From: Candidatus Schekmanbacteria bacterium
Lineage (GTDB): Bacteria > SZUA-182
NCBI GenBank assembly: GCA_016235675.1
Contig: JACRJN010000100.1
Coordinates: 1 to 39,220 of the forward strand
Reading direction: 5' to 3'
DNA: 39,220 bases
The translations under genes were made by a program, and so were the position numbers. Positions 4,411 to 39,062 of this stretch are shown piece after piece. The stretch's first letter is position 1, and each line of letters begins with the position of its first letter. The notes beneath the pieces were generated by a model. It was not told where the DNA came from. It ran no database searches and was given only the letters and a program-made list of their open reading frames with translations.

Positions 4411-4472
4411 GTTGGTAGCACAGGCATCTTACCTGTGTCCGCTCGCAGGCTGGAAGCCTGCGCTACCAACCG
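4411..4472. repeat. Cruciform repeat, family B (ACAGGC...GCCTGT type)
   Basis: The outer arms GGTTGGTAGC and GCTACCAACC are perfect inverted repeats. Inside are two hairpins, ACAGGCATCTTACCTGT and GCAGGCTGGAAGCCTGC. It sits in the 98-nt gap between nadC and lptF. An open frame runs through it into lptF, but the amino acids it would encode are only repeat sequence. Confidence 0.85.
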
Positions 4473-8759: not shown

Positions 8760-8887
8760 GGTAGCACAGGCATCTTGCCTGTGAGGTGGGCAACGCCCAC
8801 ACAAAAACGGCACAATCAGCGGAAGTTGTCGGTTAAATCGAAAGCTTGCATTCTATGCCGCGACACAGGCTGGAAGCCTGTGCTACC
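8760..8887. repeat. 128-bp composite repeat, family B, uninterrupted copy
   Basis: GGTAGCACAGGC at the left and GCCTGTGCTACC at the right form perfect ends. Within are a GTGGGCAACGCCCAC hairpin and a unique stretch (CGGCACAATCAGC, ATTCTATGCCGCG). The same unit is present in reverse orientation at 32754-33019, where it is interrupted by another repeat. Family C palindromes flank it at about 8715-8736 and 8893-8909. Nothing else is seen in the 254-nt lptG-thiC gap; in particular no thiamine riboswitch is recognisable. Confidence 0.85.
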
Positions 8888-30077: not shown

Positions 30078-30111
30078 TGTGTATTCTGTGGTTAAAAAAT
30101 TGGAGGTAAAT

Positions 30112-30615
30112 ATGCAAAAGAAACAAAGCTCAGGCGGCCTCGAAGGAATTCTGAAAGGGTTGACCGGTTTAACGGAAGCCTTGGGGGATTTGGCGGAAAA
30201 GGGAGGCAAACTTTCGCAGACCAAGGAATTTCAAGTCAAGGGTAAAAATAATGAACCGCTGAAAGGGGTTTACGGTTTTTCCGTAAAAATGGGATTGGGC
30301 AATGAGGAAATAAAAGTCGAACCGTTCGGCAACATCCGCAAAACCAAAAGCGGCGGGAAATCGATCGTTCATGAGATCAGGGAACCGATGGTCGATGTGC
30401 TGGAAGAAGAAGACGGCGTCCTGGTGGTGGCGGAAATGCCCGGAGTGGAAGCCGGGGACATAAAAGTTGACCTCAAAGACGATATTTTAAGCATTCACGG
30501 TGAGCGCGGGGATAAAAAATACAGCAAGGAACTATTGTTGCCGGGCAGTTTCAAGAAAAGCCAGATGACCGTTTCCGCCAAAAACGGGATTGTAGAGATC
30601 AAGTGTCGGAAGTAA
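30112..30615 (+). CDS. Hsp20/alpha-crystallin family small heat-shock protein
   Basis: A 167-residue ATP-independent chaperone. The first about 90 residues are a basic, Gly-rich and presumably flexible arm (GGLEGILKGLTGLTEALGDL), and residues about 92-167 are the alpha-crystallin domain: EPMVDVLEEEDGVLVVAEMP, GVEAGDIKVDLKDDILSIHG and the closing NGIVEIKCRK. The arm and domain resemble archaeal Hsp20/GvpH-like proteins more than bacterial IbpA. No IxI tail is visible, so oligomer assembly may differ from IbpA. ATG 30112 follows GGAGG (30102-30106). The CDC48 gene begins 38 nt later, pointing to a joint quality-control unit. Confidence 0.9.
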   Translation: MQKKQSSGGLEGILKGLTGLTEALGDLAEKGGKLSQTKEFQVKGKNNEPLKGVYGFSVKMGLGNEEIKVEPFGNIRKTKSGGKSIVHEIREPMVDVLEEEDGVLVVAEMPGVEAGDIKVDLKDDILSIHGERGDKKYSKELLLPGSFKKSQMTVSAKNGIVEIKCRK

Positions 30616-30653
30616 TCGAGAACGAATCAAAGGGCCGGACAGAAAGGCGCATT

Positions 30654-32729
30654 ATGAAATTAAAGGTGACCGAGGCTTTGAATAAGGATGTAGGCCGGGC
30701 ATTGGCGCGCATCGATCCGGAGGACATCAAAAAGCTGGAGCTGCAAATCGGCGACACGGTCGAGGTAACCGGCAAGCGCAGGACGGTCTGCCGGGTAATG
30801 CCCGCCTACAAAGAGCAGCGGGGCCAGGCGCGCATCCAGATGGACGGGATAACCAGGGAAAACAGCGGCAGCGGTTTGGACGAATTTGTTACCGTCCGTA
30901 AGATTACCTGCCAGAACGCTCAGCGGGTGGTTATCGCTCCCACCAACATCAAACCGACCGAACGGGATTTGAATTATATCGGCAGCCTGCTTGACAATCT
31001 GCCGGTTCAGGACGGAACTTTGATTCGCGTGCCGTTGTTTGGCAGCCGCTCAGCCGATTTCAAGGTGGAAAACACCGTTCCCAAAGGGCCGGTACTGATT
31101 CATGCCAATACCCAATTGGTAATCGGCAAGGTCAATGAGCAACCCACCGAGTCATCGCGGGTATCTTATGAAGACATCGGGGGGTTGAAACCCCAATTGC
31201 AGCGCATCAGGGAAATGATCGAACTGCCCCTGCGCTACCCTGAGGTCTTTCAACGCCTGGGAATCGACGCCCCAAAAGGCGTGTTGCTGCATGGTACGCC
31301 GGGCTGCGGCAAAACCTTGATCGCCCGCGCCATCGCCCATGAAACGGAGGCCAATTTCTACTCCATCAGCGGCCCGGAAATCGTGCACAAATTTTACGGC
31401 GAAAGCGAAGCCCAACTGCGCAAGATTTTCGAAGAAGCCTCACGCAAGGGGCCGAGCATCGTTTTCTTAGACGAAATCGACGCCATCGCCCCCAAGCGCG
31501 AAAAGGTCGTCGGGGATGTGGAAAAAAGGATCGTCGCTCAATTGCTGGCGCTAATGGACGGCGTCACCTCCCGGCAAAATGTGATCGTGATTGCCGCCAC
31601 CAACATCCCCAATGCCATCGACCCGGCTTTACGCCGCCCCGGACGCTTCGACCGGGAAATCGCCCTCCCCATACCGGATCGCAACGGGCGTGAGGAAATC
31701 CTGGGCATCCACAGCCGGGGAATGCCGCTTTCCACGGATGTCGATTTGGGTTATCTGGCCGAGCATACCCACGGTTTTGTAGGGGCTGACCTGGAGGCGC
31801 TCTGCCGGGAAGCCGCCATGGTGTGTCTGCGTACCATTATGCCCGATATAGACTTTGCCCAGACTAATATTCCTTATGAGCAATTGGCCAGGCTGGAAGT
31901 GCAGATGGAGGATTTTTTTGCCGCCCTGCGTGAGGTAGAGCCTTCGGCTGTCCGTGAGGTTTTTGTCGATGTGCCCGATGTATATTGGGATGATGTGGGC
32001 GGATTGGCCACGGTTAAGGAGCATTTAATCGAGGCGGTGGAATGGCCGTTGAAATATGCCGCCCTCTTTGAAGAAGCCGGGATCAAGCCTCCCAAGGGGA
32101 TTTTGCTGACCGGCCCTCCCGGCTGCGGCAAGACTTTGCTGGCAAAAGCCATTGCCAACGAAAGCCAGGTGAATTTTATCTCGGTAAAAGGCCCGGCATT
32201 GCTTTCCAAATATGTAGGCGAATCCGAACAAGGGGTAAGGGAGGTATTCCTAAAGGCGCGCCAGGCCGCTCCCTGCATTATCTTTTTCGATGAAATCGAC
32301 GCCCTGGTGTCTACCCGCTCTGGTGCCGGCGATTCCCATGTTTCGGAGCGGGTGTTGAGCCAGTTCCTTACCGAATTGGACGGCATCGATGAATTGAAGG
32401 GGGTATTGGTGCTGGGTGCCACCAATCGTGTGGATATGCTGGATCCGGCTATTCTGCGTCCGGGGCGCTTCGATGAAATTGTACAAATCCCCCCGCCGGA
32501 TGAAGCAGGACGCACCGATATTTTCCGGGTGCATCTTACGGGTAAGCCGGTTGCCCCAGACATCGATCCGGCAAAACTGGCAGCCAAAACCGTCGGCTTC
32601 AGCGGTGCCGAAATAGCCGCCGTCTGCCGGCAAGCCGCGTTATGCGCTGTACGGCGGGTTATCAAAGGCGAAAGCGCTAAGGTCTTGATAACCTTAGCGG
32701 ATATTTTGGAGTTTATTCAAGCGAAGTAG
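30654..32729 (+). CDS. CDC48/VAT-type double AAA+ ATPase
   Basis: A hexameric unfoldase/segregase of the CDC48/p97 family, cytoplasmic, 691 residues. The N domain (about 1-185) opens MKLKVTEALNKDVGRALARI, the double-psi barrel start shared with archaeal VAT. D1 has Walker A GTPGCGKT (about 214-221) and Walker B IVFLDEIDA (about 269); D2 has GPPGCGKT (about 487) and IIFFDEIDA (about 542). Both have AATN/GATN sensor and RPGRFD arginine-finger motifs, so both rings should hydrolyse ATP. The C-terminus stops at EFIQAK without the HbYX proteasome-docking tail. ATG 30654 was chosen over an in-frame GTG at 30603, inside hsp20, because it starts the family N domain and has AAAGG upstream. The stop TAG is the first part of a GTAGGGTGGG repeat. 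Confidence 0.93.
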   Translation: MKLKVTEALNKDVGRALARIDPEDIKKLELQIGDTVEVTGKRRTVCRVMPAYKEQRGQARIQMDGITRENSGSGLDEFVTVRKITCQNAQRVVIAPTNIKPTERDLNYIGSLLDNLPVQDGTLIRVPLFGSRSADFKVENTVPKGPVLIHANTQLVIGKVNEQPTESSRVSYEDIGGLKPQLQRIREMIELPLRYPEVFQRLGIDAPKGVLLHGTPGCGKTLIARAIAHETEANFYSISGPEIVHKFYGESEAQLRKIFEEASRKGPSIVFLDEIDAIAPKREKVVGDVEKRIVAQLLALMDGVTSRQNVIVIAATNIPNAIDPALRRPGRFDREIALPIPDRNGREEILGIHSRGMPLSTDVDLGYLAEHTHGFVGADLEALCREAAMVCLRTIMPDIDFAQTNIPYEQLARLEVQMEDFFAALREVEPSAVREVFVDVPDVYWDDVGGLATVKEHLIEAVEWPLKYAALFEEAGIKPPKGILLTGPPGCGKTLLAKAIANESQVNFISVKGPALLSKYVGESEQGVREVFLKARQAAPCIIFFDEIDALVSTRSGAGDSHVSERVLSQFLTELDGIDELKGVLVLGATNRVDMLDPAILRPGRFDEIVQIPPPDEAGRTDIFRVHLTGKPVAPDIDPAKLAAKTVGFSGAEIAAVCRQAALCAVRRVIKGESAKVLITLADILEFIQAK

Positions 32730-32753: not shown

Positions 32754-33019
32754 CAGCACAGGCATCCTGCCTGTATTGCGGCATAGAATGGAGGCTCTGA
32801 TACTAATTCGCTATCAAAGATTAATGTAGCGCGGGAGTTCATCTCCCGTAAGCAGGCGCTGCAAACGGGGGATAAACCCCCGTGCTACGAACTATTCTTC
32901 AATGTTTGATAGCGAATTGGTATTAAGTGAACAGTATTGGATTTAACCCACAACTTCCAGTCATTGTGCCGTTTTTGTGTGGGCGTTGCCCACAGCACAG
33001 GCAAGATGCCTGTGCTACC
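32754..33019 (-). repeat. Family B composite repeat interrupted by element H
   Basis: Read on the minus strand this matches the intact 128-bp unit at 8760-8887: GGTAGCACAGGCATCTTGCC, the GTGGGCAACGCCCAC hairpin, CGGCACAAT, then, after an insertion, CATTCTATGCCGC and GCCTGTGC. The insertion separates GGTTAAATC from CATTCTATGCCGC. It fills the gap between the convergent CDC48 and 2007-residue protein genes. Confidence 0.8.
32801..32922. mobile_element. H element, 122-bp palindromic insertion
   Basis: The ends TACTAATTCGCTATCAAA and TTTGATAGCGAATTGGTA are near-perfect 18-bp inverted repeats. Inside are hairpins GCGGGAGTTCATCTCCCG and CGGGGGATAAACCCCCG. It carries no open frame. A further single end, TACCAATTCGCTATCA, is at 33026-33041 and overlaps the stop codon of the large gene. 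Confidence 0.8.
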
Positions 33020-33038
33020 ATCTTATACCAATTCGCTA

Positions 33039-36000
33039 TCAGAGTTCATTTACATCATACAGATAAATCCGTTTGATAATATCCTGATACTCCTGGGGGA
33101 TATGGGGATGGTTGATGGGGGCGGCTTGTTTCTGGTCAGCGGACAATTTTTGATCGACCTCTAATTTGGTGACCGGATTGCGGGATTCCAGCGGGATGTT
33201 TTGCAGGTCTTTCCCCTGGTCGGGCAGATCGCTGCTTTTTAGCGGGACTTTAACGGTGTCATTTAGTTTATTGAAGTCTTTATTGTAAACGATCGGGACA
33301 TTACTTCCCGGCGCTTGCGGTTCGGCCAAGACCTTTACCGGGCGCGGGGCCTCCCCTCCGCTGGGAAGGCCCAATTCCATGCGCGGGTCGCTTTTCAGTT
33401 CAGGCTGTTTGGTGGTGGTGGTCTCCCTTTTGGCAGTTTTGGTATTGGCTTTGGAAAGACTGCTTTGCGGCAAGGTTTCTGAGGGGGTTTGCACCAGTTT
33501 TTCCCGATACTTTTTCACCCGCTTCATGATCTTTTCGAAAACCTCAGGGGAGGCTAAATTCTCTTCCATGGGATAAGCGTTATCAATATCTTCGGAAATG
33601 GGAACGCCGCTCACCCCCCGTCCGTTATCGCCGTCGTCGGAGGTGCCTTTGCTGAACAATGACTGGCGATTTTTGCCGCCCTGTCCCTTGCTGGTGGCGG
33701 AAACAATCTTTTCGTCGCGTGAGGCGTTCTTGGAGAAATCTTTCAGGCTGTACTTGCCCATCTTTTGCTGTTGATCCATCAAATCATCCAAAAAAGTATC
33801 GATGGATTGCAGGGCGGCCTGGCGTTTCATCTCCTGCATACTCTCCTGCTCGTTTAATTCGCCGGACGATTGGTGTTCAGACTGCTTTCGGGCGGCCTTT
33901 ACGCTTGGACGCAAAGTGGGATCGAGCGCCTTTTGCTGTGCAGGAGAATCCTTCATTTTCTGGCCCAATCCCTTCAATTGATCGGCAATTTGCAGCAAAC
34001 GATCGGAATCAAAAGCTTTTTGCAGCCCCAATTCCAGTTTTTTGATGGCTTTCCCGCTGGGAAGATTGGCGTCGGCGCTGGCGGCTCCATCGGCAATCTG
34101 GCGATCCCCCATATTTCCCAATTCCATGTTGCCTAATTTGTTGGCATATTGAGCTAATTGCGGCAATATCTGATTGAGCGGGGTGTTTTTAATATCCATT
34201 TTAGTGCCCTTCCCCATTTGACCTTTATCGCTGCCTCGATCTTGATTTTGATCTCGGTCTTGACCTTGCTCTTGCTCTTGCTCTTGCTCTTGCTTTTGAT
34301 TAGGTTCCCTAGCTGTCGGGTTTTTGGATATTTTTTGGGCTATTTTCAGCAGATCATCGGATACCGTTTTCAGGTTGGCGCCCTCCTGCTCGGTCAGATT
34401 CTTTTTCGATGCCTGACGCAGGGAGGATGCGATGGAATCTAGCTGCAAACCGACATCCTTTAAATTCAATTCCCCGCGGTGTTCGCTGATGCGGTTTAAT
34501 AACTGCTGCAATTTCTTGCCGCCCTCCTGCACCGCATTCTGGGCGGCGCTTTTGGCTTCCGGGGCAAAGGAGGCTTTGGCCTTGCCGAGTCCCATATTAT
34601 ATTTAACATCGCTCAATTCATCGGAAAGCTTGACCAGTTCCTGAGCGGCCTTTTGGATTTGCTCCGGGTCGTCGCTGGTGGCGATGGTCTGGCTCAATTC
34701 CTCCAGCCGATGCGCATCCCGCCGGTTGAGCATTTCCTGGCGCTGCCGGTCGTCGATGCCTTGAGTTAAAATATCCTCCTTGAGGGCCTTCTTCAACATG
34801 TCCGCAGTACGTTCGACCTGCGTAGCGTATTTTCTGACCCCTTTGCCTTCCTGCCAGCCCAAGGCGTCGGCCTTATCCCCCATGGTTTTCAGCTTGGCCG
34901 CATAGAGTGAAAGCTCCAGAGAATAACCGTCCAGTTTTTGGGGGTCTTGCTCTTTATTTATCTTCTGGCTTACGTCCTGAATCTTTTCCCCCTGGCGTTT
35001 CACCCCTTCTTTGAGAATGGCTACCGTTTGATCGCTGCGTTTAGGGGTAAGCTGATACAAATCCTGGGAAAAATCGAGGATTTCCTTAGATAATTTTTTG
35101 GCCTCTTCCGGACTTTTAGTTTTTTGCAGCCGGTCGTTCATCTTCTGTAGGTTGGCTAAACCGTTCTTGACTTCTTTAGGCAGGGGAACGGCTTCCCGCT
35201 TCTTCAGCAAATCCCGGTTATTTCCGGTTTTCATCTCCCCCAACTCAGGATAAACCAGGTTGCTACCTGAGGGTGTGGCCGCACCCTGCAAGCCGTCGGC
35301 GCTTTGGGTGATAAACTGCTCGCCGACCTTTTTCCCCGGTTTTACCTCCGACCCCATGAGCATAATATTTTCCATGCCGTTTTGTTCCATTTTTTTGGAC
35401 AGGTTAATCATCTCCTGGGTGATTTCCTTGATTTTTACGTTCTGGGTCGTACCCGTCATGGATGTGCGCAACTTGGCGAATTCAGCGGCAATCTGGGTAT
35501 AGCTGTTGTTTCCTGTGGATAAACCGGCAGGGGTTTTGTCCGTCTGGGGAATTTGGTCGTCTTTGGCCAGCCCGCCATCTTTTTTGATTTGCTTATAGCT
35601 ATCCAATTGGTTGGGCAGTTTGGTATTTTCCGGCTGCGTTTTGTTGTTGATTCCGCCCGCATCTTTTTTGGAACTATAGGGAACATTCTTCAGATTTTGG
35701 CCGGGATTGTCTCCCGGCCCTGCTTTATCCACGTCTTGGCCTGCCGGGACCGATTTATTCACGGCTTGTGCTTCCGACGGCATGGCTTGTGCCAATTGCA
35801 GGCTGACATTTTCCAAGTCCTTTGACAGGCTGCTTAGCTGTTTAGTAATCTGGCTCATTTCGTTGGGAGCCATGGGGCGATCCATGGCCGTTTTGATCTG
35901 CTGCAATCCCCGGCGCTGCTGATTAATGAAATCCTGAGCCGACGGGGTTCCTCCAGTAAGGTTATTCATGTTCATAGAATTGCCGTCGGGCAATTGGCCC

Positions 36001-39000
36001 TGGCGCATCAGGGAAAGCCGCTTTTGCGGGTCGGGCTGGAAGTTATTTTGGTTCTCCGGCAGGCCGGTTTCCAGGGAGATATTGGTAATCGACTGATGAT
36101 TCGGTTGATGTGTCGGTAACTTCTGCAATCTTATGCCGGCTGTGTCCTGCACCGAATTTTCCGGGCTTTGACCGTTGATGGCTACGGCATCCTGTTTGCC
36201 GCTGCCTGTACCGCCGCTGAAGGTTTCGCTTTTACCGAGGTCGACGTCTCGTTTCGTATCCTTGTCTTTAGTTCCGTTGTTTTGGGTATCGGTCAGAAGG
36301 GTCTGCAATTCATTGGATACCGCGGCGGTAAGCTTTTGATATTCGTTGGCCGGATCGGGGGTTTGGCTCAGACCGGGAGCGGTTTTCCCGCCGGGAGCGG
36401 CATTAACGGCCAGGTTTTTGTTCATAAAGCCCCTCAGCCCCTGCTTGGCCTTTTCCGAAACATCCACTCCTTGCGGATTGGAGACCATCATCATTTGACC
36501 GGCCAATAATTCCAGTTTTTGCGCGCTTACTTTGATCTTGTCCTGCACCTCGTCTTTAAAAGGGGCGACAGGCGGCGGTTGCGGCAGTTTACTTTCATCC
36601 TGCCATTTTTGGATGTACCACTCGTAAAATTCATCGGGCAGTGCGTTTAGCTGAGATTTCGGGGCAACTTCTATATTCCGCGGATTCATGCGGGTCGCGA
36701 TAAACTGGTCTCCCATCCCCTCAAAATTCTGGGGAGGGTTGATGTTTTTACCGGCGGCTTTTTGCTGATTGGCGGAATTTCCCCTTTGCACTTTGGTAGT
36801 GGAATCCTGGGGAATATCGCCCAGTTTCCTGAGTTCCGAAGATAAGCCGTCCAGTTTTTGGGCGGCTGTTTTTACATCCTTAAGCAAATCGGCAGAAGGT
36901 GTTTGCCCAAGCTGTTTTCCCTGGGAATAATCCTGATTAGGGTTATTCAACAAGTCGTTTTTGTCTCCGGAAAGGGTATTGTCTTTACCATCTTTGGGCA
37001 GTTTGCGCTTCAGTTCATCTGAAGTGCGGTCTTCCCGCGCGGCCTGCTGGTCATCATAATATCCGGTTTGGGGGTTATCTCCTGCCGTGGTTTTGTCGCC
37101 TATTTTCTCCGGCTCCAGACCGGTGGAGGTTTTGGCGCTTTGATCCTGGTTGTAATTAAAGCCGCGCTGCGCCTGGTTTTGGTTGCTGCCGGTATCCGGA
37201 CGATCCTCAGGTGTAGTTTCCCCTTTGTTTTGGGCATCAGGTTTCTTGGCCAAGCTGGCCGCCTGTTTATTATCAGGCTGCTTGCCGATATTAGGGTTAT
37301 CAGCATCCGCCGGTTTTATCCCGCGGCTTTTTCCTTCTTGGGATTGCGGTTGTTTGTCGTTTTTGTCGCCGCCGAATATATTGTCCAATAACTTGCTTAT
37401 CAAATTACCGCTTTGCTTTTCCGAATTTGCCGCGCCGCCGCCTGTCGGGTTTTGAGCACCGGGAGGGGTCTTGCCTGCCTGGTTTGGATTGCCGGAATTC
37501 GTTTCGCTGTCGGATTTATATTGATTCATGGTATTTTTGAGCTTATCGTATTTATCCCCCTTCGACATGGCAGCCAGGCGATTCTCACCGCCTCCCTGAT
37601 TTGGGGCGCCGCTGGAATTTGGGGCGGGTTTGTCCTTAGTGTCGGCGCCTCCGGTACCGCTTTTCCCGCCGCCTCCGGTTTCAGCTTTTTGCTGATTGGC
37701 TGTATTGAGCAGATCCATGGCCATCTGATGCAGTTGCCTGGAGATGTCGCCTTTAAGCTGATCGGAGGGCGTATCCATCGGATCGAAAGGTATGGGGGTT
37801 TTGTTGCTGATCGGAGGCAGAGCCGGTTCGCGCGCGGACAGGGCTTTTTGTTTTTGGGCGGGCGGGTCATCTTTGGGGGTTAATTTAGCCAATTCATTAG
37901 CCACCAGGGCTTTTAAAAGATTAGGCTTCGACGACGACGGTTTATTGGCGACTTTTACCGCTCCTTGTACCGCGGCGTCTTTATTGGAGACGATGCTTAC
38001 CGGTTTTTTTTTACTCAGATCGATTAATTCATCCCCCAATTTTTGTAATGAGGGAACGATTTTTTCCGCCAGTTCGGAATCATTGTCCCGGGCTATTTCC
38101 AGGCTGAGCTTTTGTAAACCCTTGCCTTCTTCCTCCAATAAATTATTCAAGGGCAATTTATTGGCCAGTAGGTTTTTAGTTGAGGAATCGGAGACTGTTT
38201 TCAGATAATTTTTCAGTTTATTTCTCAATTGCGGCAAGGCGAAAGCGCTGGAAAAGGATACCCCGCCTGCCAGCACTAAGGGAAAGATGAAATTGGAAAG
38301 TCCGGGACTGGGAAAGCGGTGAGGAAAGACCAATTCCGGTTTGAAGCGTTTTAATTTTTCTATTATCCGCTGTGCCAAAACCAGATAAAGCGGGGAGGGA
38401 TTTTCGGCGTTTTTATTGTCCCATAAGGTCAATAAGCCTTCTTTTAACTGCATACGGTTGTCGATTAGTGAAATCACCTGGCGGGGGGTATGGAATTTCA
38501 CCCGAAAATAGTGGATAGTATAGATATAACTGTAACCGATAAAGCATAACAAGGTAGCCCCGTCTATAAAAGGCAGGCGGGTAATCAGATATTCCCTCCC
38601 AAATAATAAGAGGAGGAAAAGGGAGGCGCCTACCGCAAGAATGCTGAAGCTGGTTTTTTCCAACTCCAACAATCTTGCGCGCCAATAGGTTTTGCCGATA
38701 TGGGTTTGAACCGGGGCTAAGTTAATCGGGGCATCGGGTTTAGATTTAGCGGATTTTTCGGCTAGCGATTTATACCCCCAGATACTGACCAGTACATAAA
38801 TAAGTGAAGGGGCAAGCCAGCCGAGCAGCAATCCGCCCATAAACCAATCATTCCAGAGATTATGCTGCCGCTGGTATACGGACAGGAAATCAACCCCTTT
38901 AAAAAGGATGCTCATCAGATTATAAAGCAAGTTCATGCCGAAAGCGGTTAATGCAGGGCTAAACCAGGTGCGGAGAATCCACCAAAATGCCGCTAGAATT

Positions 39001-39062
39001 ACCAGGGATGACATGGAGATGATGATTGATTTTTGTGTTTTTCCGGATATGTTGAAACGCAT
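33039..39062 (-). CDS. Giant membrane-anchored Q/K/N/S-rich protein, possibly DUF4175-like
   Basis: A 2007-residue protein. Predicted membrane segments lie at about 13-33, 73-97, 140-157, 166-186 and 257-276. Between the last two is VISLIDNRMQLKEGLLTLWD, which resembles the (I/V)DRRLxLKxRLxT motif of large proteins in MoxR/BatA-type operons (DUF4175 and relatives). Residues about 330-700 are low-complexity and probably disordered. About 715-1720 hold a series of amphipathic helical modules of the form L..L...(S/D)PE......EL..LS..L. Residues about 1580-1610 are an EQ/DQ-rich tract encoded by a hexanucleotide repeat. The protein ends IPQEYQDIIKRIY, similar to the (I/V)PxEYRDLVxxYF tail of such proteins. 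Start ATG 39062; the ribosome-binding site is weak. No enzyme motif was found, so a scaffold or envelope-spanning role is only inferred. Confidence 0.8.
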   Translation of the reverse strand: MRFNISGKTQKSIIISMSSLVILAAFWWILRTWFSPALTAFGMNLLYNLMSILFKGVDFLSVYQRQHNLWNDWFMGGLLLGWLAPSLIYVLVSIWGYKSLAEKSAKSKPDAPINLAPVQTHIGKTYWRARLLELEKTSFSILAVGASLFLLLLFGREYLITRLPFIDGATLLCFIGYSYIYTIHYFRVKFHTPRQVISLIDNRMQLKEGLLTLWDNKNAENPSPLYLVLAQRIIEKLKRFKPELVFPHRFPSPGLSNFIFPLVLAGGVSFSSAFALPQLRNKLKNYLKTVSDSSTKNLLANKLPLNNLLEEEGKGLQKLSLEIARDNDSELAEKIVPSLQKLGDELIDLSKKKPVSIVSNKDAAVQGAVKVANKPSSSKPNLLKALVANELAKLTPKDDPPAQKQKALSAREPALPPISNKTPIPFDPMDTPSDQLKGDISRQLHQMAMDLLNTANQQKAETGGGGKSGTGGADTKDKPAPNSSGAPNQGGGENRLAAMSKGDKYDKLKNTMNQYKSDSETNSGNPNQAGKTPPGAQNPTGGGAANSEKQSGNLISKLLDNIFGGDKNDKQPQSQEGKSRGIKPADADNPNIGKQPDNKQAASLAKKPDAQNKGETTPEDRPDTGSNQNQAQRGFNYNQDQSAKTSTGLEPEKIGDKTTAGDNPQTGYYDDQQAAREDRTSDELKRKLPKDGKDNTLSGDKNDLLNNPNQDYSQGKQLGQTPSADLLKDVKTAAQKLDGLSSELRKLGDIPQDSTTKVQRGNSANQQKAAGKNINPPQNFEGMGDQFIATRMNPRNIEVAPKSQLNALPDEFYEWYIQKWQDESKLPQPPPVAPFKDEVQDKIKVSAQKLELLAGQMMMVSNPQGVDVSEKAKQGLRGFMNKNLAVNAAPGGKTAPGLSQTPDPANEYQKLTAAVSNELQTLLTDTQNNGTKDKDTKRDVDLGKSETFSGGTGSGKQDAVAINGQSPENSVQDTAGIRLQKLPTHQPNHQSITNISLETGLPENQNNFQPDPQKRLSLMRQGQLPDGNSMNMNNLTGGTPSAQDFINQQRRGLQQIKTAMDRPMAPNEMSQITKQLSSLSKDLENVSLQLAQAMPSEAQAVNKSVPAGQDVDKAGPGDNPGQNLKNVPYSSKKDAGGINNKTQPENTKLPNQLDSYKQIKKDGGLAKDDQIPQTDKTPAGLSTGNNSYTQIAAEFAKLRTSMTGTTQNVKIKEITQEMINLSKKMEQNGMENIMLMGSEVKPGKKVGEQFITQSADGLQGAATPSGSNLVYPELGEMKTGNNRDLLKKREAVPLPKEVKNGLANLQKMNDRLQKTKSPEEAKKLSKEILDFSQDLYQLTPKRSDQTVAILKEGVKRQGEKIQDVSQKINKEQDPQKLDGYSLELSLYAAKLKTMGDKADALGWQEGKGVRKYATQVERTADMLKKALKEDILTQGIDDRQRQEMLNRRDAHRLEELSQTIATSDDPEQIQKAAQELVKLSDELSDVKYNMGLGKAKASFAPEAKSAAQNAVQEGGKKLQQLLNRISEHRGELNLKDVGLQLDSIASSLRQASKKNLTEQEGANLKTVSDDLLKIAQKISKNPTAREPNQKQEQEQEQEQGQDRDQNQDRGSDKGQMGKGTKMDIKNTPLNQILPQLAQYANKLGNMELGNMGDRQIADGAASADANLPSGKAIKKLELGLQKAFDSDRLLQIADQLKGLGQKMKDSPAQQKALDPTLRPSVKAARKQSEHQSSGELNEQESMQEMKRQAALQSIDTFLDDLMDQQQKMGKYSLKDFSKNASRDEKIVSATSKGQGGKNRQSLFSKGTSDDGDNGRGVSGVPISEDIDNAYPMEENLASPEVFEKIMKRVKKYREKLVQTPSETLPQSSLSKANTKTAKRETTTTKQPELKSDPRMELGLPSGGEAPRPVKVLAEPQAPGSNVPIVYNKDFNKLNDTVKVPLKSSDLPDQGKDLQNIPLESRNPVTKLEVDQKLSADQKQAAPINHPHIPQEYQDIIKRIYLYDVNEL
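34265..34294. repeat. Hexanucleotide tandem repeat (CTTGCT)x5 inside the giant gene
   Basis: Five perfect tandem CTTGCT units, read as (EQ)-type codons on the minus strand. As the unit is six bases, changes in copy number would alter length without shifting the frame. Confidence 0.95.

Follow-up and report, generated by a model that had tools for sequence, protein, structure and literature searches.

A repeat-lengthened relative of MoxR-operon membrane proteins in a Candidatus Schekmanbacteria genome

Profile comparisons identify both ends of a 2007-residue protein of Candidatus Schekmanbacteria, the N-terminal membrane module and the C-terminal tail, as homologous to a family of short membrane proteins encoded in MoxR operons. 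What is unusual about this protein is its membership in a lineage-specific family of paralogues whose middle part has been lengthened by repeats. We tentatively propose, with confidence somewhat short of even, that it is a lengthened paralogue of the small MoxR-adjacent protein and acts as a tether or scaffold across the periplasm. The gene is located in a window of 39,220 nucleotides that constitutes an entire contig (G000:C51) of a 2.98-Mb genome, assembled in 190 contigs and approximately 90% complete. It forms a single open frame with an ATG start (Table 1), and it is not a chance ORF, since a second long homologue exists in the same genome and others are present in two related genomes. 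The sequence-only reading of a membrane-anchored protein rich in K, Q, N, and S was borne out by the reading frame, the multi-pass N-terminus, the composition of the body, and the quoted motifs. In this region, promoter- and terminator-like sites are no more numerous than expected by chance.

Table 1. Features of the long gene and its flanks (window coordinates; residues of the 2007-residue protein).
Feature	Position	Strand	Basis or remark
Whole 2007-residue gene	33039..39062	(-)	Single open frame; homologues in same and related genomes
Non-coding stretch upstream of the gene, to contig end	39063..39220	(-)	
Membrane module, 4–5 predicted TM helices (residues 1–276)	38235..39062	(-)	Hydropathy, alignment A1, hhalign 98.5%
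IDNRMQLKEGLLT motif, residues 200–212, in positively charged TM4–TM5 loop	38427..38465	(-)	ID...LKxGLxT conserved in A1
K/Q/N/S-rich body, residues 277–1827	33582..38234	(-)	Composition, helix-prone segments, repeat statistics
First hairpin unit, residues 313–350, directly after TM5	38013..38126	(-)	Leave-one-protein-out score 11.1, best shuffle 7.7
M0 island, IRLxxxPxHxPxHxxxxNIS, residues 976–998	36069..36137	(-)	Alike in four long proteins
Hairpin unit, residues 1302–1339	35046..35159	(-)	Leave-one-out score 11.5; helices 7–25 and 29–49 of AF2 model 1290–1720
Hairpin unit, residues 1450–1487	34602..34715	(-)	Leave-one-out score 18.4
Hairpin unit, residues 1538–1574	34341..34451	(-)	Motif pair spaced 23
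M1 island, NAYPMEENLASPEVFEKIMKRVKKYREKL, residues 1828–1856	33495..33581	(-)	Kept in 4/4 full-length long proteins
M2 tail, residues 1985–2003	33054..33110	(-)	Common to short MoxR-operon proteins; hhalign 87%, E 4e-6
135-bp element, perfect 17-bp terminal inverted repeats	32907..33041	.	Its end supplies the TGA stop of the 2007-aa gene

Transmembrane (TM) peaks of hydropathy are found at residues 12–30, 74–92, 137–155, and 258–276, with a weaker peak at approximately 166–186 that is clear in the paralogues. Residues 116–330 align with the short MoxR-operon proteins (alignment A1), the TM1–TM2 hairpin being extra. The loop containing IDNRMQLKEGLLT has 12 K/R vs. 6 D/E residues, the TM2–TM3 loop is also K/R-rich, and the other two inter-TM loops are K/R-poor. 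By the positive-inside rule, this charge bias would place the IDxxxxLKxGLxT loop in the cytoplasm and the body of about 1700 residues outside it. The body would then be periplasmic, as LptF/LptG, encoded in the window along with MurJ, suggest the presence of an outer membrane. An AF2 model of residues 1–420 from three sequences was useless (pLDDT 42).

The short MoxR-operon proteins (360–620 aa; e.g., L014:2815-4074 and L015:8093-9439) share with the window protein a TM pair, an IDxxxxLKxxLxT loop, a further TM helix, a helical segment, and an IPxxYxxxVxxYF tail, and are matched with profile E-values from 1.7e-58 (a seed member) to 7e-6. The window protein, whose 2007 residues lie outside their length range, differs from them in the additional N-terminal TM hairpin, a body longer by some 1500 residues, the iterated hairpins, the M1 island, and the lack of a visible MoxR neighbor. 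In hhalign comparisons, where each E-value refers to one pair and is not database-wide, the N-terminal modules of the long and short proteins are linked at 98.5% (E 2e-15) and those of the short proteins and DUF4175 at 96.8% (E 2e-10); the direct link between the long proteins and DUF4175 is weak (43%, E 2.5e-4; reversed control 0.9%). For the tails, the respective values are 87% (E 4e-6), 94%, and 13%. Reversed controls did not exceed 13%, column-permuted ones gave an E-value of 0.26 at best, and alignments of BatA or permeases reached at most 0.3%.

No meaningful Pfam or NCBIfam match was obtained for the long and short proteins, and PHROGs and PDB sequence searches with the long protein also yielded nothing meaningful. 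At its curated cut-off, the HMM of DUF4175 (PF13779) matched neither the whole protein, nor its N-terminus, nor anything in its own genome; this domain is present in 49 of 193 bacteria and in none of nine genomes of the window's class. DUF4175 proteins (approximately 1000–1300 aa) have a similar N-terminal membrane layout and a YPxxYxxxIxxYF tail, and one examined member adjoins BatA/VWA genes; the window protein is unlike them in having no match to the HMM. In G275 and G281, two A1 matches from outside the class with frames longer than 1000 aa resemble DUF4175 in Pfam, with E-values just under the cut-off (5e-5 and 2e-6, respectively), and the one from G281 comes after BatA and another large membrane protein. 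Given the stepwise profile links from long to short to DUF4175 proteins, the window protein and DUF4175 appear to be members of one superfamily, but by the curated definition the protein is no DUF4175 member. Hence, the earlier guess at a relative of large proteins accompanying MoxR and BatA, to be checked by profile searches with the termini, stands in part: at either end, the protein is related to membrane proteins encoded in MoxR-DUF58-BatA operons, and the short MoxR-neighbor proteins were found, but the expected DUF4175 hit did not materialize. TIGR02302 comprises alphaproteobacterial low-complexity membrane proteins in which TM helices are followed by a Q/G-rich tail. The window protein resembles this family in general layout and has no match to its NCBIfam model.

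The short members are closely associated with MoxR in diverse bacteria: for 11 of 14, a MoxR gene lies within 2.4 kb, and for ten of these within 300 nt. The short homologues in G003, G005, and G035 (414–448 aa) directly precede a MoxR gene, followed in G003 and G035 by DUF58, BatA, and a VWA protein. MoxR/DUF58/BatA operons are widespread, yet no family model covers the small membrane protein that, in the sample examined, is often encoded ahead of MoxR. None of the three complete long relatives belongs to a MoxR operon, the closest MoxR gene being 8.9 kb away (G005:C11), and thus the MoxR connection of the long proteins may be ancestral only. No genomic link was found between the 2007-aa gene and MoxR or BatA genes. 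The contig stops 158 nt upstream of the ATG, short of the partners supposed to lie to the right of the window; the 158 nt contain no MoxR, DUF58, or VWA gene, and none occurs elsewhere near the gene. The predicted operon partners are unsupported, and the suggested undescribed system finds no support as an operon. The same assembly yielded no short member, which may be due to its incompleteness. This genome carries its MoxR-system genes at scattered sites: contig C127 has a BatA/VWA pair without MoxR (L106:5627-10443), and contig C137 has MoxR-DUF58 plus a separate second DUF58 (L029, L042).

The absence of complete long members from MoxR operons would fit a family that has drifted from MoxR and now serves as a stand-alone scaffold, e.g., in cell division or envelope stiffness, an explanation we regard as unlikely but deserving of weight. 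In its favor, AdvA of Acinetobacter baumannii, annotated as DUF4175 and a conjectural relative of the long family, is an essential mid-cell division protein (PMC7481262), and work on how Rhodobacter sphaeroides regulates its division and envelope lists a TIGR02302 gene among the targets of CenR, an envelope regulator (PMC9275681); the same target list includes a MoxR-type gene. Against this, the long proteins have retained the C-terminal tail of the operon family.

Searching 97 genomes with residues 1–330 identified, besides short proteins, five further long relatives or fragments. These are a second long gene in the same genome (C108, 1501 aa), three genes in G005 (C85, 1839 aa; C11, approximately 1847 codons; C52, at least 1218 aa up to a contig end), and one in G003 (C51, at least 493 aa, broken off at a contig end); the complete relatives are 1501–1848 aa long. 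The A1 profile, built from long and short members, has matches in 29 of 386 genomes. Among these matches, open frames exceeding 1400 aa were limited to G000 and G005, and truncated long forms occurred in G003 and G005. The long forms (1500–2007 aa) were seen in only three genomes of one class, with at most three per genome, and are absent from the other six genomes of the class. In the tree, the long proteins form a single clade (98/98) separate from the short members of their own class; the deeper order is unresolved. A scan of genome contigs with the single protein found no relative.

One of these relatives, G005:C11 (L012:9720-15263), has one in-frame TGA inside the TM5 region, which may reflect a pseudogene, recoding, or a sequencing error. 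An interrupted frame of this kind, together with the fast divergence of the body (22% identity in alignment A4), is what one could expect if the low-complexity part had grown largely neutrally and only the membrane module and the tail mattered. We consider this quite improbable, as a length of 1500–2000 aa is retained in four paralogues despite the low identity, and both the iterated hairpin and the M1 island score far above shuffles.

The composition of residues 331–1900 is dominated by K (10.9%), Q (9.4%), L (9.0%), A (8.0%), G (8.0%), D (7.5%), S (7.5%), and N (6.9%), and the body may be mostly disordered. The earlier description of a low-complexity helical body is correct as regards composition, but the body is not featureless: it carries an iterated hairpin and, toward the C-terminus, conserved islands. 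The body contains 17 instances of the motif phi-x-x-phi-[SAG]-x-x-phi vs. 2.1 in shuffled sequences (maximum 9 in 500). In five long proteins, the distances between pairs of relaxed motifs have peaks at 7 (20 pairs) and 23 (10 pairs vs. 1.8 expected). This pattern corresponds to two helices connected by a short loop, LxxLSxxL-x15-LxxLSxxL. A first HMM of this hairpin proved circular, scoring strongly on its own seeds and on little else, and was replaced by a leave-one-protein-out profile trained on the units of the other proteins. With the latter, the window protein has seven matches, three of them above every shuffle, as compared to one in the reversed sequence and 0.46 on average in shuffled ones; in some paralogues, this signal is less pronounced. 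A helical segment likewise follows the last TM helix of the short proteins, at the position of the first hairpin copy, and the unit was not significantly detected by the profile in either short or DUF4175 proteins.

An AF2 model of residues 1290–1720, computed without an alignment, shows helical hairpins with pLDDT of approximately 80–91 over residues 1300–1338 and 1350–1420. Foldseek with this model gave nothing at E<=0.001; the Foldseek and VIA-align matches are generic helical bundles or designed repeats, no better than the noise level stated for helical proteins, and the lack of a fold match does not constitute evidence for a new fold. Along the body, predicted helical segments alternate with presumably disordered linkers.

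Of the conserved islands, M1 scored 22–33 bits in leave-one-out tests vs. at most 6.3 for shuffles, and the M2 tail, with IPQEYQDIIKRIY at residues 1988–2000, exceeded all shuffles in each of the four tests on full-length long proteins. The histidine island M0 is convincing by eye and was only marginal in the same kind of test.

The long paralogues keep both ends and lengthen the middle, which points to the membrane module and the tail as the parts that matter. In the tether reading proposed here, the module would be seated in the cytoplasmic membrane, and the hairpins would make up stretches of a helical rod, with flexible linkers between these stretches. M1 together with the IPxxYxxI tail would bind an envelope partner, for which a VWA/BatA-type protein is the likeliest candidate. 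The result would be a long periplasm-crossing tether or scaffold, whose assembly or remodelling may depend on MoxR/BatA proteins from other loci of the genome. Together with VWA partners, MoxR ATPases are known as remodelling or assembly factors, as in the case of NorQ/NorD (PMC13036017), and a report on RavA/ViaA describes such a role for another pair of MoxR ATPase and VWA partner (PMC3893208). In Riemerella anatipestifer, MoxR and BatA affect survival of heat and oxidative stress (PMC11834572). The long paralogues offer a test of the tail as a docking site.

The activity of MoxR/VWA pairs on other complexes (PMC13036017; PMC3893208) is equally what one would expect if the long protein were itself a substrate, i.e., an envelope structural protein folded, assembled, or remodelled by the MoxR/VWA proteins. 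The location of the gene outside an operon and the occurrence of several paralogues per genome agree with this; the homology of its N-terminus to an operon member fits a co-factor role just as well, and we hold the substrate explanation to be rather improbable. A bolder extension of the tether reading, which we offer as speculation with a low likelihood, is that a MoxR-operon co-factor has been turned into a family of repeat-built, periplasm-spanning rods of 1500–2000 residues, each bearing a conserved docking site at its C-terminus; these would extend the reach of the MoxR/VWA machinery, with paralogues of different rod length serving different envelope sites.

Several other features of the window and the genome were observed. 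Two adjoining elements (32800-32923 and 32907-33041) have terminal inverted repeats of 17–23 bp (TACCAATTCGCTATCA) and share the middle repeat. The 15-mer ACCAATTCGCTATCA has 26 copies in the genome, in several places arranged as facing pairs approximately 120 bp across (none for the reversed control), and these elements constitute a MITE-like family. A palindromic repeat, GCACAGGCA-NNN-TGCCTGTG, is found in the window at 8764-8784, 32756-32775, and 32995-33015, and also at 4418-4437, with none expected by chance. Downstream of the 2007-aa gene, its convergent neighbor (30603..32729) encodes a CDC48-type ATPase of the bacterial type, preceded by an Hsp20 protein with a weak match to GvpH (window 30079-32729). 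Contig C127 of the same genome encodes three GvpL/GvpF proteins, an AAA protein, and another Hsp20 protein (L044:788-7772). Taken together with the Hsp20 gene in the window, these genes suggest that the organism probably makes gas vesicles.
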